Source of the DNA: Candidatus Hadarchaeum yellowstonense
Lineage (GTDB): Archaea > Hadarchaeota > Hadarchaeia > Hadarchaeales > Hadarchaeaceae
Length of the DNA stretch: 37,878 bases
Reading direction: 5' to 3'
Assembly (NCBI GenBank): GCA_001515205.2
Contig: LQMQ01000057.1
Location: 1-37,878, forward strand
Notes under the pieces: model-generated
Told to the model about the DNA's origin: nothing
What the model saw: the letters and a program-made list of their open reading frames with translations, nothing else
Database searches by the model: none
Shown here: piece by piece, positions 1-37,095 of the stretch
Layout: the number at the start of each line of letters is the position of its first letter
Position numbering within the stretch: position 1 is the first letter of the stretch
Made by a program: the position numbers and the translations under genes

Positions 1-285
1 CAAAAGTGGACAATAGACAAATGTGGACATGGGCAAAACGTGAGAGTTCGTTAAAACACACACCTGAAATAAAAACAGCAGATTAATTTAAAAAATTTCA
101 TAAAACGCGTCTTTTTGCCACATAGGCCGCATAAAAATTCCTTTAAAAGAAAGCCGAAAATCAATCAATTTGATCTTATTTGTCGTGAATATGCAACAAA
201 ATTTAGTTTTTTTATAAAAATGGACAAATGTAGACAAAAGCAATTAAGCTTAAATACTTAGACATAAATTGACAAATGTGGACAT
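1..285. repeat. Phased GACA direct repeats upstream of HTH/ATPase module
   Basis: An AT-rich 285-base non-coding stretch carries eight copies of a GACA core in three clusters: 8-12, 15-19, 25-29; 222-226, 232-236; and 260-264, 270-274, 280-284. Within clusters most copies are exactly 10 bases apart, so they fall on one face of the helix. A 15-mer (GACAAATGTGGACAT) occurs exactly at 16-30 and 271-285 and with two mismatches at 223-237. The last copy abuts the ATG at 286. The array may continue left of the window. The likely ligand is the HTH protein encoded immediately downstream, either as an operator or as an iteron/centromere-like site; that role is inferred. Confidence 0.7.
249..260 (+). 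promoter_or_regulatory. TATA box for the HTH/ATPase operon
   Basis: The sequence TTAAATACTTA lies about 30 bases before the ATG at 286, which would give a start of transcription near 280 and a nearly leaderless mRNA. The third repeat cluster (260-285) sits between TATA and the start codon, where a bound protein would block initiation. A second TATA-like stretch (TTTATAAAAA) is at 211-220. Confidence 0.5.
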
Positions 286-879
286 ATGGAGAAACTGTAC
301 ACTTTGAAAGAGGCCAGAGAAATCCTTAGAGTATGTACCAAAACGATCCAAAGATGGGATAAAGAGGGAAAAATTAAATGTATTCGCACACCGGGGAACC
401 GGAGGCTTATTCCTGAAAGCGAAATTTTGAGGATAATTGGAAAAATAAACCATTTAAAAGTTGAAAATGCTGAAAATAAATCTTTAATTACCGGAACCGA
501 GACTAAAAAGGAAGAAACAGTCCTCAAAACAAAAATTGAACCCAAAGAAATTAAAATCAAGGAAGCTGCAAAAATTGAAAAACCAGTCGAACCAATTCAA
601 GAAGCGAAAGAATCTCCAGAAAAATCAAGCAAGCCAAAGGAGATGACGCGTTATGAGATGCTCGACGCCCTTGAACCACCAGGACTTGCGATCCGCGCGG
701 CATTCGGCGATCTGCTCTCGGCCGCCATCCTCTTAAAAAAATTCACCGGTAAAGACCTCTCTGCTCGGGCGCGTTGTCCCGAATCAGTTGTAAACCTGTT
801 TTGCCAGCGCATGCTCTCGTTAGGATATGTCGCGGAAAAGAACGGGGTTTTTGAGTTACTAGTTGAGGTTATCAGATGA
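286..879 (+). CDS. MerR/excisionase-type HTH protein with basic-acidic linker
   Basis: 197 aa. Residues 4-48 ([30 protein letters not shown]) form a helix-turn-helix of the MerR/HTH_17 type, as in excisionases and IS607-like resolvases. Residues about 62-122 are a Lys/Glu-rich, probably disordered linker. Residues about 125-197 form a separate compact domain I cannot name; its helical pattern followed by a short strand end could be a winged helix. No resolvase catalytic domain is present. The gene overlaps the ATPase gene by ATGA (876-879), so the two are probably translated together. The phased GACA repeats upstream suggest it binds its own promoter. Whether it is a regulator, a partition adaptor or a transposition accessory factor cannot be settled from sequence. 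Confidence 0.8.
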
Positions 880-1754
880 CGACTTTTGATGAAAAAATTG
901 GCCGAGATCAGCGCTTTGAAGCCTTTATTCAGCGATGGGGGTTACAAAAAGACCCTTTTAGCTTTGAAATGCCTTCTATTGACGCCTTTGCACCATCGCA
1001 GCAAGAAGATATCCGAAAAATCAAACAATTACTTCAGGAAGGCAAAGTGGGGGTATTGACCGGAGATCTAGGAATGGGAAAGACCACGCTTTGCGAATTT
1101 TTAGTTTCTGCTTTAAGGGAAGAAAGTCTAGCAACCCCAGATCCGGCCAAACAGGTCATACCGGTTTTTGTGCATGGAGCGGCTTACAAATCCTCCGGGG
1201 AGATCATCAGGGCGATCCTGCTGGCCCTTGAAATGCCTGTGGATAGGGATGACGCGAGCCTTTTTGATGTTCTGAGGAGATGGCACCAAGACCACCAAGA
1301 GCGGCTGGTGATTATCATCGACGATATCCCGGAAAGTGGGGCCAACGTCCTCGAAATAGGCGAATTTCTGCGCGTTCTTTCCGATATCCCCAACATTTCC
1401 ATTCTCATCAATGGAGAAAAAACCCAGATGCAACGTTTTTTAGACAAAGTTCCCTCCTTGAGAGACAGGGTCCAGCTACACGTCGAGCTCAAACCCATGG
1501 GCAAAGAAACCATAAAAGACCTGTTGAAACTGCGATTAAAGAGCGCCGGATGCCTGAATTACGACGCTTTAATAACCCCGGATGGTTTTGACGCAATTTA
1601 CAAACTCAGCAACGGCAACCCCCGGCTGGCTCTCAAGGTCGCCGACAACGCTCTGCACCTGGCCGCAGCGCTGGATGTCCCGATCAACGAGCGTGTGGTG
1701 AAAAAGGCAAACAAAGTACCCTTCTGGAAGCGGCTGTTTGGCTCACGAGGTTAG
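876..1754 (+). CDS. ExeA/TniB-like AAA ATPase
   Basis: 292 aa. The N-terminal [10 protein letters not shown] stretch (residues 21-30) matches the conserved lead-in of ExeA/Orc-like ATPases. Walker A is GDLGMGKT at 63-70, Walker B is LVIIIDD at 144-150, and a GNPRLA sensor-2-like motif lies in the C-terminal lid. Relatives include ExeA of type II secretion, the transposition ATPases TniB/MuB, and Cdc6-like initiators, so the family alone does not fix a role. No transmembrane segment or peptidoglycan-binding domain is visible, which speaks against secretion. It is coupled to the HTH gene by a 4-base overlap. The pairing of an HTH protein, an ATPase and upstream repeats suggests a DNA-directed ATPase acting through the HTH partner; that is inference. 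Confidence 0.82.
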
Positions 1755-1806: not shown

Positions 1807-2217
1807 ATGACGGGCTTGGAAGGCGAGGAAACGCTGAAAGCGGAGAGCTGGCTGCGCAATAACCTCTTGGCTAAGGTGCTGTTGGAGCGATCCCATTTGG
1901 ATGAAAAAACCTTGAAAGCCCTGCTGCTTTATTACTGGTCTGAAAATCCAACTTTCGAAGATATTGCCAAAAAACTCAAAATTAACAGGTCTGGCGCCTG
2001 GAAAAGGTGGAAAAAAGGCCAAAACGCCATAATGCGCTCTTTTTACACCATTGAGCTGGCAATTTATTCCGGAATTTTGGAAAAGGAAACGGCTGAAATC
2101 CTGATTGACGACTTGATTGACTACAGCGAGCTGGCAAAGGGTGCCGGAAATGTCGAAGAGATCAGGGACAGGATCGAACGCCGAATGGTCCAACTGGCGA
2201 GAAATCTGCGCGGTTAG
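1807..2217 (+). CDS. Sigma-70 region-4-like HTH protein
   Basis: 136 aa from the ATG at 1807. The frame is open from 1738, but that start would overlap the ATPase gene and encode the TATA-like stretch and palindrome at 1771-1802, so 1807, preceded by AAGGAG, is preferred. The central part (EDIAKKLKINRSGAWKRWKK) reads as a helix-turn-helix of the sigma-region-4/transposase-like class, preceded by a helix with LDEKTLKALLLYY. The C-terminal half is helical and acidic/basic with no recognised domain. It follows the ATPase gene by 52 bases on the same strand. It is probably a DNA-binding regulator or accessory factor of the upstream pair. Confidence 0.7.
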   Translation: MTGLEGEETLKAESWLRNNLLAKVLLERSHLDEKTLKALLLYYWSENPTFEDIAKKLKINRSGAWKRWKKGQNAIMRSFYTIELAIYSGILEKETAEILIDDLIDYSELAKGAGNVEEIRDRIERRMVQLARNLRG

Positions 2218-2302: not shown

Positions 2303-2590
2303 ATGGCAGAACAAAAAACCGCCGAGAATGTGGTTTTTATTGGAGTGAAACCAGTGATGAACTATGTTCTGGCAGTGATAACGCAGTTCAATCAGGGCAT
2401 CAACGAAATTACCCTCAAGGCACGAGGCAAAGCGATTAGCAGGGCCGTCGATGTTGCTGAGATCGTCAGAAACAGATTCCTGCAGAACATGGTGGTGAAA
2501 AACATTTCCATAGGAACCGAAACCATGCAAGGAGAAGGCGGTACTACAAACGTTTCGACTATAGAAATTGTGCTCGGAAAGGGGCAATAA
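2303..2590 (+). CDS. albA: Alba DNA/RNA-binding chromatin protein
   Basis: 95 aa, the usual Alba length. The signature region [11 protein letters not shown] (residues 14-24), the following [13 protein letters not shown] and the helix [12 protein letters not shown] align along the whole family. Alba dimers coat DNA and bind RNA. In Sulfolobus Alba the first lysine of the GKKPVMNY motif (Lys16) is the reported acetylation site; here that position is Val15, and only the second lysine (Lys16 in this protein) is kept. The gene stands alone between its own promoter and a T-rich terminator. Confidence 0.95.
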
Positions 2591-8193: not shown

Positions 8194-8910
8194 TCAGGAG
8201 GAGCACTTTCTGAGCCCTGAAAGAAGCTCGTTGACGGTGGGAACCTTGGCGATGACCAAGGGAACCTTAAGTATCTCTGCTATTTTTATCCCGAGATCAT
8301 CAACTGCCTTGAGATCTCCGTGCAAAATGACCATTCCCGGGGTGATGCCAATGACCTTGACGGCGACGAGAGGCGACCGGCCAGTGGTCACCCCGGTGAA
8401 AACCAACGCTCGCTCGGTGGTCAGTCCGTAAAGGCGCCGGAAATCATCGGCCGAAAGCGCCAGTATCGCCTTATGGCTGTCGATAACAGTGTAACCAAAG
8501 ATCTTTCGGTCAAGCAATTCTTTATTCGCAACTGCCTCTCCAGCCACGGCTTTGACCACCGCCCGGCCATCGACGGGGGTGGTGTATTCCCTGATCTCAA
8601 GGACCACCTCCGGAGGCAGCTGTGTGCCAAAGACCTGGGAAAAGACATTGAACATTTTTCCACCATGCTGCTCGTCGACCTCCAAAAGGGCCTCGACGAT
8701 CCTTTTTATAGTGGCGGCGCCGGGTGATTTTCTTCTGCCGGCCTCATAATCGCTTATGACCGACGGGGAAACCCCCATCACTTTGGCCAGCGCCGGTTGA
8801 TTGACGCCGAACCTCTCCCGCCACAGCTTAATGGCTGCTCCGGGAGAATCGGCCAAAGTGATATCACCGGCTATCCAGCGAGCGATCCTGTCCCTGATTT
8901 CCTCAGCCAT
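8194..8910 (-). CDS. XRE-type HTH regulator with archaeal C-terminal domain
   Basis: 238 aa from the ATG at 8910; a TTG nine bases upstream is less likely. Residues about 25-80 are an XRE/HTH_3 helix-turn-helix (QPALAKVMGVSPSVISDYEAGRRKSPG). The C-terminal 130 residues form an alpha/beta domain found in a family of archaeal regulators (COG1709-like) that, as I recall, is often encoded beside HMG-CoA synthase. It sits 112 bases upstream of that gene on the same strand, with a promoter between them, so control of the mevalonate operon is plausible. The small-molecule or protein signal sensed is unknown. Confidence 0.83.
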   Translation of the reverse strand: MAEEIRDRIARWIAGDITLADSPGAAIKLWRERFGVNQPALAKVMGVSPSVISDYEAGRRKSPGAATIKRIVEALLEVDEQHGGKMFNVFSQVFGTQLPPEVVLEIREYTTPVDGRAVVKAVAGEAVANKELLDRKIFGYTVIDSHKAILALSADDFRRLYGLTTERALVFTGVTTGRSPLVAVKVIGITPGMVILHGDLKAVDDLGIKIAEILKVPLVIAKVPTVNELLSGLRKCSS

Positions 8911-33453: not shown

Positions 33454-36117
33454 TTAGGCTACGGTGTAAGACTTTGCTTCCTTTGACTTCAGCGCGGCGT
33501 GAGCGGCCGCCAGTCTTGCCACTGGTATTCGGAAGGGAGAACAGGAGACATAGTTCAACCCCAGCTCATGACAGAACTCGATTGAGGACGGGTCTCCGCC
33601 GTGCTCGCCGCAAATGCCTATCTCCAGATCAGGCCTTTTGCCCCTGCCCAGCTCCACCGCTATTTTCATGAGCTTGCCCACCCCTTTCCGGTCCAGCCGC
33701 TGGAAGGGATCTGCCTCAAGTATTCCTTTCTCAATGTACTGGAAGAGAAATCTGCCCTCGGCGTCATCCCGGGAGTAAGCGTAGACCATCTGGGTAAGAT
33801 CATTCGTCCCAAAGGAGAAGAACTCCGCATATTCCGCAATCTCGTCTGCAGTAAGCGCCGCACGGGGGACCTCGATCATGGTGCCGAACTTGTATTTCAG
33901 ATCCACACCATGTTTCTGCATCACCTCATGCGCGACCTTCTCCAGCTGCTCCCTGACCAGCTTCAACTCGTTGACATGGCCCACTAGTGGTATCATTATT
34001 TCCGGCTTGGGATTCTTGCCCTCGCGCTTGAGCTCGCAGGCTGCCTCAAAAATAGCCCTGACCTGCATTTCATTGATCTCCGGGTAGATGATGCCCAGCC
34101 TGCAGCCGCGAAGGCCCATCATGGGGTTGGCCTCGCGCATTCCTTCGACCCTCTTGAGCAGCTCCTCTTTCTCCCTGAGCTTCTCAGGATCAGAACCCCT
34201 GAGCCTGAGCTCGATTACCTCCTCCAGCAGTTTTTCGTATCTTGGCAGAAATTCGTGTAAGGGTGGGTCCAGCAGCCTGATGATCACAGGCAGACCATCC
34301 ATCACTTCCAAGATCTCCTTAAAGTCATTCTTTTGTATCTGGAGAAGCTTTTCTAAGGGTTTTTGCCTCTCCTCCTTGGTCTCCGCCAGGATCATCTCGT
34401 GAACAAGCGGCAGCCTGTCCTCTTCAAAAAACATGTGCTCGGTGCGGCATAACCCAATCCCTTGGGCCCCAAGCTCCCTAGCTTTTCTCGCGTCTCGCGG
34501 GTAATCGGCATTGGCCCAGTTTTGTAGCTTTTTCACCTCATCAGCGAAGGAAAGAATGGCCAGGAGCTCCGGCGACATCTTGGGCTCAATCAGGGGGGCT
34601 GCCCCTAAAATGACCTCCCCGGTGGTTCCGTTTATCGTTATCAAATCCCCCTCTTTAACCACCGTTCCGTCCACTTCAAAGAGCCTGGCATCGACGTCAA
34701 TCTTTATGCTCTCACAACCCACCACCGCCGGCTTGCCCAGTCCCCGCGTCACCACGGCTGCATGGCTGGTGACCCCACCTCTGGAGGTCAAGACACCCTG
34801 AGAAGCGATGATGCCACCAACGTCGTCGGGGCTGGTCTCTGGTCTCACGAGAATAACTTTTTCCCCAGCCTTGCCCATCTCCTTGGCCCGCTCGGAATCG
34901 AAAACCGCCTTACCTACCGCAGCCCCGGGGCTGGCGTTCAACCCCTTGGCTATGACGGTAACTTTGGCCTGGGGATCAACCTGCTTGTGCAGAAGTTGCT
35001 CGATGTGGCTCGGCTCAATGCGCAACAGGGCCTCCTCCTTTGTAATCAGGCCCTCCATCACCATGTCAACCGCTATCTTGACCGCCGCCTGCGCCGTGCG
35101 CTTGCCGGCTCTCGTCTGTAGCATGTAAAGCTTTCCCCGCTCAACGGTGAACTCAATATCCTGCATGTCCCGGTAGTGGCGCTCCAGCTTCTCCGCTATT
35201 TCCACCAGTTTATTGTAGATCTCAGGATACCTCCGTTTCAGGTCATCTATTTTGAGGGGGGTCCGTATACCGGCAACCACATCTTCTCCCTGAGCATTAA
35301 ACAAAAACTCACCAAACAGCTTGCGCTCGCCTGTTGATGGATCCCTGGTGAAAGCCACTCCTGTTCCCGAATCCTCGCCGATATTCCCGAAAACCATCGT
35401 TACCACGTTGACGGCGGTGCCGAGATAATCTGGAATCTTGTAAAATCTCCTGTATTCGATGGCTCGCTTGTTCTGCCAGGAAGCAAACACCGCTCCTATG
35501 GCCAACTCGAGCTGTTTAACTGGATCGCTGGGGAAATCTTGATGGGTCTCCTCCTTCACCAGCTGCTTGAACTTTTTAACAATCTCCTTGAGATCGGTGG
35601 CGGTGAGATCAGTATCAAACTTGGCGCCGACCTTTTTCTTCTGCTCCTCAAAGATCTCCTCAAATTTCTTGCCATCAACGCCCAAGACTATCTTGCCAAA
35701 CATCTGAATGAAACGACGATATGCATCATAGGCAAACCTCTCATTGTTTGTGAGCTTCGCCAGCCCCTCGACGGTTTCATCATTTAACCCGAGGTTGAGA
35801 ATCGTGTCCATCATACCCGGCATTGAATACATCGACCCGGAACGTATGGAAACCAGCAGCGGGTTTTTGGGATCACCGAAACCCTTGCCGGTGATCCTCT
35901 CCAGCTTTTTCATCGCCTCCATTACCTCATCCATCAGGCCGGCAGGAAGCTTTCCGCCGGCGTCATAGTACTGCTTGCAGACCTCAGTTGTAATTACAAA
36001 ACCCGGAGGCACGGGCAGTCCCAGCTGGGCCATGGTACACAGGCCGGCACCCTTGCCCCCCAGAAGCCTTTTGTTGGTGCCGTCTCCCTCGTCGAAAAAG
36101 TACAACCGCTTTGCCAT
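33454..36117 (-). CDS. ppdK: Pyruvate phosphate dikinase
   Basis: 887 aa from the ATG at 36117. The frame stays open to 36690, but that part is antisense to agmatinase and would contain the promoter, so it is left out. Interconverts pyruvate, ATP and phosphate with PEP, AMP and pyrophosphate. N-terminal ATP-grasp domain (LLGGKGAGLCTMAQLGLPVPPGF), swivelling phospho-histidine His452 in GGVTSHAAVVTRG, and the C-terminal PEP barrel with GICGEHGGDP. The length is normal. A TATA box (GACTTTTAAG) is at 36151-36160. Direction in the cell depends on energy state. Confidence 0.95.
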   Translation of the reverse strand: MAKRLYFFDEGDGTNKRLLGGKGAGLCTMAQLGLPVPPGFVITTEVCKQYYDAGGKLPAGLMDEVMEAMKKLERITGKGFGDPKNPLLVSIRSGSMYSMPGMMDTILNLGLNDETVEGLAKLTNNERFAYDAYRRFIQMFGKIVLGVDGKKFEEIFEEQKKKVGAKFDTDLTATDLKEIVKKFKQLVKEETHQDFPSDPVKQLELAIGAVFASWQNKRAIEYRRFYKIPDYLGTAVNVVTMVFGNIGEDSGTGVAFTRDPSTGERKLFGEFLFNAQGEDVVAGIRTPLKIDDLKRRYPEIYNKLVEIAEKLERHYRDMQDIEFTVERGKLYMLQTRAGKRTAQAAVKIAVDMVMEGLITKEEALLRIEPSHIEQLLHKQVDPQAKVTVIAKGLNASPGAAVGKAVFDSERAKEMGKAGEKVILVRPETSPDDVGGIIASQGVLTSRGGVTSHAAVVTRGLGKPAVVGCESIKIDVDARLFEVDGTVVKEGDLITINGTTGEVILGAAPLIEPKMSPELLAILSFADEVKKLQNWANADYPRDARKARELGAQGIGLCRTEHMFFEEDRLPLVHEMILAETKEERQKPLEKLLQIQKNDFKEILEVMDGLPVIIRLLDPPLHEFLPRYEKLLEEVIELRLRGSDPEKLREKEELLKRVEGMREANPMMGLRGCRLGIIYPEINEMQVRAIFEAACELKREGKNPKPEIMIPLVGHVNELKLVREQLEKVAHEVMQKHGVDLKYKFGTMIEVPRAALTADEIAEYAEFFSFGTNDLTQMVYAYSRDDAEGRFLFQYIEKGILEADPFQRLDRKGVGKLMKIAVELGRGKRPDLEIGICGEHGGDPSSIEFCHELGLNYVSCSPFRIPVARLAAAHAALKSKEAKSYTVA

Positions 36118-36213
36118 AGCATCCCTCAACAGGTTAAGCGTGCTACCAAACTTAAAAGTCTTTGCATCGATAGAGTTAAACATCAATGAAAAAAGGATGG
36201 TTTGTGAGAAAAA

Positions 36214-37095
36214 ATGAAATTTGAAGAAGTGACGCCGGTCAGACCGGGATTTGGCGGTTTTGATTTTCCCTACGAAAAGTCTCAAGTGGTCTTTCTGGGT
36301 GTACCTCTGGACATCACCTCGAGCTACCGTCCCGGCTATCGCTTTGCTCCGGCTAAAATAAGGGAAGCGTCGGCCAATATTGAAACCTATGTGATGTCGG
36401 CGGGTGTTGATGTCTTTGAGAAGCTTAACATTTCCGACCTCGGCGACATCGTCATCACGCCCACTGACCTGAAGCTGACTGGGGAAAAAATCACCCGGGT
36501 GGTTAAAAAAATTCTTCATGACGGGAAAATACCGGCGGTAATGGGGGGTGAACACACCATCTCCTATTTTGTCTTGAAGGCTTTTGACGATGTGACCGTC
36601 ATTCACCTTGACGCCCATAGAGATCTCCGCGATGAATACCTGGGCGACAGGCTGTGCCATGCGACGGTCATGCGCAGAGTGCTCGACCAACTGCCCGCTG
36701 ATCGGCTAATTCAACTGGGAGTGAGATCATGCTCCAAAGATGAAGCCGAATTTGCCGAAAATTCCGGAATCAGGGCCTATACTTCAGAACATCTGATTAA
36801 GGAGCCTGAAAAAATCATTGCCAATTTGAAAAAAATTGTGAAAAACTCAGAGGTCTACCTCTCCATAGACCTTGACGTTCTCGATCCGGCCTTTGCCCCC
36901 GGTGTTTCAACACCTGAACCCGGCGGAATATCCACAGTTGAACTTCTGCGACTTTTGCGGGAGCTGGGGAAGTTAAACATATCGGGCTTTGATGTCGTGG
37001 AACTGGTCCCACCACACGACGACGGAACGACATCCTTCGTCGCGGCAAGGATAATCTACGAACTGCTGGCCGCGCTCGGCTCTAAAAAACGATAA
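36214..37095 (+). CDS. speB: Agmatinase
   Basis: 293 aa of the ureohydrolase family. Splits agmatine to putrescine and urea. Manganese ligands lie in GGEHTIS, HLDAHRDL, and SIDLDVLDP. The combination with DEYLGDRLCHATVMRR fits archaeal agmatinases more than arginases. It diverges from ppdK across a 96-base gap and is followed at once by the convergent L10e gene. In archaea this step leads toward spermidine. Confidence 0.92.
   Translation: MKFEEVTPVRPGFGGFDFPYEKSQVVFLGVPLDITSSYRPGYRFAPAKIREASANIETYVMSAGVDVFEKLNISDLGDIVITPTDLKLTGEKITRVVKKILHDGKIPAVMGGEHTISYFVLKAFDDVTVIHLDAHRDLRDEYLGDRLCHATVMRRVLDQLPADRLIQLGVRSCSKDEAEFAENSGIRAYTSEHLIKEPEKIIANLKKIVKNSEVYLSIDLDVLDPAFAPGVSTPEPGGISTVELLRLLRELGKLNISGFDVVELVPPHDDGTTSFVAARIIYELLAALGSKKR

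Follow-up and report, generated by a model that had tools for sequence, protein, structure and literature searches.

The array of GACA repeats at the start of the analysed stretch of Candidatus Hadarchaeum yellowstonense DNA (37,878 nucleotides, contig LQMQ01000057.1, referred to below as the window) is probably a binding array for the helix-turn-helix (HTH) protein encoded directly next to it, in an operon that represses itself; array, promoter and HTH domain would all stem from the left end of an IS607 transposon. Sequence comparison strongly supports a link between array and HTH protein: the array has been conserved, the motif follows the class of the HTH domain, and matching repeats accompany related HTHs in IS607 elements. 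Binding as such, its cooperativity, the repression and the recruitment of the operon's ATPase are what we infer by analogy with better known systems. The mode of binding is a known one, and its repeated capture by an ATPase operon is undescribed as far as our searches outside subscription journals show; neither an IS607-derived operon of HTH and ATPase nor this locus in Hadarchaeota was found described there.

Within positions 1-285 of the window, GACA occurs eight times (at 9, 16, 26, 223, 233, 261, 271 and 281) in three clusters, and all but one of the steps inside the clusters (7 and 10; 10; 10 and 10) measure exactly 10 bases. A 15-mer, GACAAATGTGGACAT, has exact copies at 16 and 271, and the copy at 223 (GACAAATGTAGACAA) deviates by two mismatches; the last copy (271-285) abuts the ATG of the HTH gene at 286, downstream of a TATA-like TTAAATAC (250-257). 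The position listing and shuffles thereby confirmed a preliminary description, made from the letters alone, with respect to the clusters and their 10-base phasing, the near-threefold 15-mer and the placement of its final copy between TATA box and start codon. Neither eight GACA nor four GACA pairs at 10 bp were reached in any of 5000 dinucleotide-preserving shuffles of positions 1-285, and an exact 15-mer repeat arose in 3 of 2000; under a harsher control, in which any tetramer counts, four 10-bp pairs were reached in 142 of 5000 shuffles (2.8%).

The suspicion that the array might run past the window edge, which is also a contig edge, proved correct. Contig C63 ends with the window's first 123 bases, and because of this identity its end is likely the left neighbour of the window (window 1-123 equals L003, on C63, 8559-8681; exactly 123 shared terminal bases are an assembly overlap). 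C63 adds copies 10 bp apart directly 3' of the hypE stop codon (gatGACAaaatatGACAaaag), so that the left cluster, whose end part occupies 1..33 on the forward strand (GACA at 9, 16 and 26, all GACA columns being the same in a congener, G001), continues leftwards to that stop codon with GACA at 8510 and 8520 and TACA at 8557 of C63. The whole hypE-HTH spacer measures ~346 bp and holds two array clusters, one 3' of hypE and the other around the HTH promoter; in the 46-kb join of C63 and window, GACA-N6-GACA on the window strand is confined to it. The promoter cluster consists of a GACA pair (223 and 233; 221..240, forward strand) immediately 5' of the TATA-like box and kept at -63/-53 in G001 and -65/-55 in G013, of the box itself (250..257, forward strand), with an equivalent position in L013, L016 and L027, and of a GACA triple (261, 271 and 281; 261..285, forward strand) in exact 10-bp steps that ends at the base before the ATG. 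The TATA-to-ATG distance would suit a leaderless or short-leader archaeal transcript. Directly 3' of the left cluster, window positions 36-51 carry AAAACGTGAGAGTTCG, which is not a GACA unit and is fully conserved in G001; a sequence resembling it, AAAACGTGGAGATTGC, was found upstream in L022.

All genes of the operon lie on the forward strand. The HTH gene (286..879) encodes a BldC/IS607-TnpA-like winged HTH (residues 1-54; Pfam HTH_17), followed by a disordered Lys/Glu linker and, in the predicted model, a C-terminal winged helix (residues ~118-197). Its stop codon is overlapped (ATGA) by the gene of an AAA+ ATPase (AAA_22; 876..1754), which is syntenic across families f1 and f2 and has a normal Walker A motif (GDLGMGKTT). 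The fold predicted for the ATPase (AF2 model with pLDDT 89, compared by Foldseek) is nearest to ORC/Cdc6, then to TnsC and MuB, with TM values of 0.6-0.7, and agrees with that of the ORC/TnsC/MuB clade of AAA+ proteins; TnsC (7rzy) was matched in the profile search as well, and the named relatives are Hadesarchaea. The third gene encodes a small HTH protein (1807..2217; weak Sigma70_r4), the frame being open from 1738 and homologues beginning near the ATG at 1807, and it adjoins the HTH-ATPase pair in f1, f2 and f3. The gene of an Alba chromatin protein (2303..2590; Pfam Alba, 1.2e-21) follows downstream in most (but not all) relatives. This order of HTH, AAA+ ATPase and small HTH, often with Alba behind it, shows synteny across most of the family's genomes and extends to one genome of a second family, and its neighbourhood is of a housekeeping kind (class II tRNA synthetase, TrmI-like, hypE-like and PHP genes); in G003 the ATPase is apparently missing, but the contig ends just 5' of the third gene, which makes the absence uninformative. 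The operon is chromosomal, and in the genera sampled its ATPase part shows vertical inheritance. Evidence for a current mobile element was not obtained: a plasmid search with the ATPase returned just distant AAA proteins (24-28% identity), and a scan of viral contigs returned nothing. Membership of a defence system was also considered and rejected, as matches were weak and at domain level only (mad1 HTH, ZorE HNH).

Conservation of spaced GACA upstream of orthologues was the point on which the array had been set in advance to stand or fall, and the pattern is conserved there. Compared with the congener G001, identity is complete in the GACA columns (40 of 40) and 58% (177 of 305) in the remaining intergenic ones. 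G004, of another genus, has the triple at -25/-15/-5 too, and G013 retains GACA pairs near the corresponding places. Overall, GACA is kept in three genera (g1, g4 and g9), and in other relatives the phasing is kept with a different core. Among the 23 genomes searched, GACA-N6-GACA-N6-GACA occurs once per genome and solely at this locus in G000, G001 and G004, with reversed-pattern controls near zero in such genome-wide array searches. Two loci of the window's HTH class (class A, below), L022 and L029, have eroded or off-register arrays. Left and right clusters are separated by 197 bp here and by 186 bp in G001; the two distances differ by roughly one helix turn, which, coming from two genomes, is only a hint of looping.

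The different cores seen in other relatives follow the type of HTH domain. Orthologues of the operon fall into two classes built on a common, vertically inherited chassis of winged-helix tail and ORC/TnsC-fold ATPase. Class A (the window, G001, G004, G005, G010 and G013) has Ser or Cys at HTH residue 17, a helix like CTKTIQRW or SVRTLQR, GACA arrays and no HNH domain, whereas class B (genera g2, g6 and g8, G009 of g9, and family f2) has His17, the helix HPNTIRRW, an HNH domain (Pfam HNH) between HTH and C-terminus, and arrays of GTTA/GTGA at exact 10-bp steps, with up to eight perfect units (G012). Four strict GTKA units in a row were found solely at the orthologous locus, in 3 other genomes of the 23 searched. 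By profile, the class B HNH (e.g., L014 2367-3131) is IscB/ZorE-like; exclusively in class B it forms an insert between HTH and winged helix, and by eye its catalytic residues look eroded in L024 and L028.

Comparison of the two gene trees reveals what has been exchanged. The HTH-domain tree separates A from B with 100/100 support, whereas the ATPase tree interleaves them, with four label changes, and 0 of 200 bootstrap trees have only one. A single genus holds both classes (G009 and G013), and L016 shares 77% of its ATPase but 54% of its HTH with L014, as opposed to 67% and 87%, respectively, with L012. The array therefore tracks the HTH class and not the ATPase lineage, i.e., the DNA-binding part and the array move or change together on a constant chassis. 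Joint transfer follows from their being adjacent, so that co-inheritance of HTH and array is partly physical linkage and selection is shown solely by conservation within classes; at this level, retention of the repeats within each class on a diverged background argues for a function. When three-unit chains were scored, 23 of 23 His17 rows favoured GTKA by at least 2 points, and 17 non-His17 rows divided into 13 favouring GACA, 3 ties and 1 leaning to GTKA by one point. The scores of His17 and other rows are fully separated (U = 0, p 7e-8); within the IS607 rows p is 5e-5, and within the system rows 7e-4. These p-values are optimistic, as the His17 rule was framed after some sequences had been viewed and many rows are near relatives. 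For the IS607 TnpA and BldC-like HTH families, which are large and little-studied, the separation yields a simple and testable code relating HTH residue 17 to a GACA or a GTTA/GTGA core.

A third array type is found in the sister family f3, where the ATPase and the C-terminal winged helix are kept and the N-terminus is a Cro/Xre-like HTH (weak matches). Its spacer 5' of the HTH gene (L030-L033) holds GTAGG/CCTAC repeats mostly 20-23 bp apart (a ~21-bp period), at a count reached in 0 of 1000 shuffles; GACA or GTTA chains were not found in the f3 upstream regions. Because f3 retains ATPase and winged helix yet has a different array, the constant element is a phased array in front of the operon, and the array sequence varies.

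The source of the GACA and GTTA/GTGA types is suggested by IS607. The nearest sequences of the HTH in other archaea are IS607-type TnpA-like proteins (up to 75% identity), and a plasmid search with the class B HTH matched IS607 transposases. Repeat units in these elements sit between TATA box and tnpA ATG: GACA at -23 and -13 before tnpA goes with class-A-like helices (L169, L171, L172 and L178), GTGA-type units go with His17 helices (L163-L166 and L160), and L150 has TAAC, i.e., GTTA reversed, at -46, -36 and -26. L171-L173 are near-identical in the TATA-to-ATG stretch and diverge further left, which is the pattern expected for a transposon left end. In a combined HTH tree of only 53 columns, class A is nested among the IS607 rows, and class B joins the IS607 of G042 (97/91); two label changes are needed, which points to two or more captures of an IS607 left end. 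That these went from IS607 to host, and not the reverse, appears the more natural reading in view of the breadth of IS607. If so, one cellular operon has adopted a transposon left end along with its matching binding domain on more than one occasion. The window's genome also has a remnant of another IS607-type HTH (L155; G000:C51:9-164), with a different helix (IHFVTLKKW).

The operon protein nevertheless differs from TnpA. What it shares with the IS607 left end and TnpA (IS1535, ISC1926) is the N-terminal HTH, at up to 75% identity in archaeal members, and short, helically phased direct repeats between TATA box and gene start, with a core that goes by HTH class. Unlike TnpA, it is without a serine recombinase catalytic domain and has instead a winged helix at its C-terminus, and its HTH is fused to this winged helix, linked to an AAA+ ATPase and conserved at one chromosomal locus; the IS607 model NCBIfam NF033518 scores 28 of 110 bits, below cut-off, and matches residues 8-57 only. 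The best PDB match of the HTH by both sequence and fold is the MerR-like winged HTH of Streptomyces BldC (6ama/6amk; TM by target 0.82-0.89, 38% identity), although the BldC model NCBIfam NF033787 is not passed (36.3 bits vs. a 77-bit cut-off). BldC stands alone at 68 residues and has many targets, with 9-bp units of the form AATTXXXX(C); the operon HTH carries an additional domain, has an ATPase as partner and is tied to 10-bp units at a single locus.

Both relatives indicate how the array might work. BldC oligomerises head to tail on direct repeats (PMC5859096), and IS1535 TnpA cooperatively coats four helically phased 9-bp direct repeats (PMC6188088). By analogy, the HTH domains of the operon protein probably occupy one 10-bp unit after another, in head-to-tail order and on a single face of the DNA; in doing so they would coat TATA box and gene start, and the operon of HTH, AAA+ ATPase and small HTH would be autorepressed. 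DNA looping may bring in the second cluster, ~200 bp upstream. Array and ORC/TnsC-fold ATPase are probably coupled by the C-terminal winged helix, because this element has stayed with the ATPase each time the DNA-binding part changed. The only requirements of this uncharacterised Hadarchaeota ATPase system that seem constant are an ORC/TnsC-like ATPase, a winged-helix adaptor and a phased array by its own gene. A role as global regulator was tried as well and rejected: two-mismatch matches to a 14-mer off the array (four) are not above the reversed-pattern control (five).

Of the roles that the preliminary description had left side by side (partition centromere, iteron origin, autoregulated operator), the last is the one favoured by the position of the array, which overlaps the HTH promoter from around the TATA box up to the ATG and has a motif that covaries with HTH class; the proposed link to the HTH protein was upheld by conservation, by this covariation and by the IS607 repeats, and the origin fared badly. 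Beyond autoregulation, we tentatively consider, as a possibility with the lesser chance of being right, that an ATPase system has repeatedly replaced its DNA address label (at least two captures of IS607 left ends, and another HTH and array in f3) and that the array nucleates a chromosome-organising or segregation structure, rather than being only an operator. The narrower idea of a centromere-like partition site, where the HTH protein loads on the array, the ATPase moves or positions the chromosome and autoregulation is a by-product, seems rather unlikely. In plasmid partition operons, the repeat array is an operator 5' of genes for a DNA-binding protein and an NTPase, a layout that the present operon shares, with one chromosomal array locus per genome, split in two clusters, and with array and DNA-binding domain exchanged as a unit beside a constant ATPase, in the manner of partition systems with exchangeable specificity (the other HTH and ~21-bp array of f3 would fit as well). 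Yet the ATPase is AAA_22, with a fold near ORC/TnsC/MuB, and of neither ParA nor tubulin type, the locus is chromosomal and not at a GC-skew switch, and extra array copies were not seen elsewhere.

An iteron replication origin, at which ORC-fold ATPase and HTH protein would open the AT-rich stretch between the clusters, is improbable. The ORC/Cdc6-like fold and the AT-rich spacer separating two clusters suit it, but it is disfavoured because a skew switch is not seen at the locus and ordinary ORC1/CDC6 genes are found on other contigs: in G023 the skew changes sign near C2:345-360 kb, with the locus at 266 kb (~80-90 kb off) and orc1 at 318 kb, and G009 shows no skew switch at the locus, in a test on draft genomes with partial sampling that is indirect for the window's array type, as the G023 locus is of the third type. 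With ORC/Cdc6 and TnsC/MuB the ATPase shares the predicted fold, at identities of ~20% or less; unlike theirs, its operon has no surrounding transposase or transposon ends, and it has no fused winged helix.

About equally improbable is a passive relic, i.e., an IS607 left end that was inserted once and whose repeats have no present role: kinship of array and HTH to IS607 is what such a relic would show, but GACA columns are fully kept where other intergenic columns are at 58% (G001), GACA persists in g1, g4 and g9, and the class B array has grown to 8 perfect units in G012. Periodicity arising by chance or from the composition of the AT-rich spacer (A-tract phasing), for which the 2.8% of the any-tetramer control might be invoked, is practically negligible given the 0 of 5000 for GACA pairs, the confinement of the array to one locus with near-zero controls, and its conservation.

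Two further observations concern proteins outside the family and the far end of the window. By eye, distant ATPases of the operon type with a C-terminal winged-helix-like extension occur in other archaea (L035 and L036), where they adjoin a membrane protein and a small PRC-barrel-like protein. At window positions 33454-36690, a PEP synthase/PPDK-like frame of 1078 aa, matched by PPDK_N in three stretches, seems long for its family.
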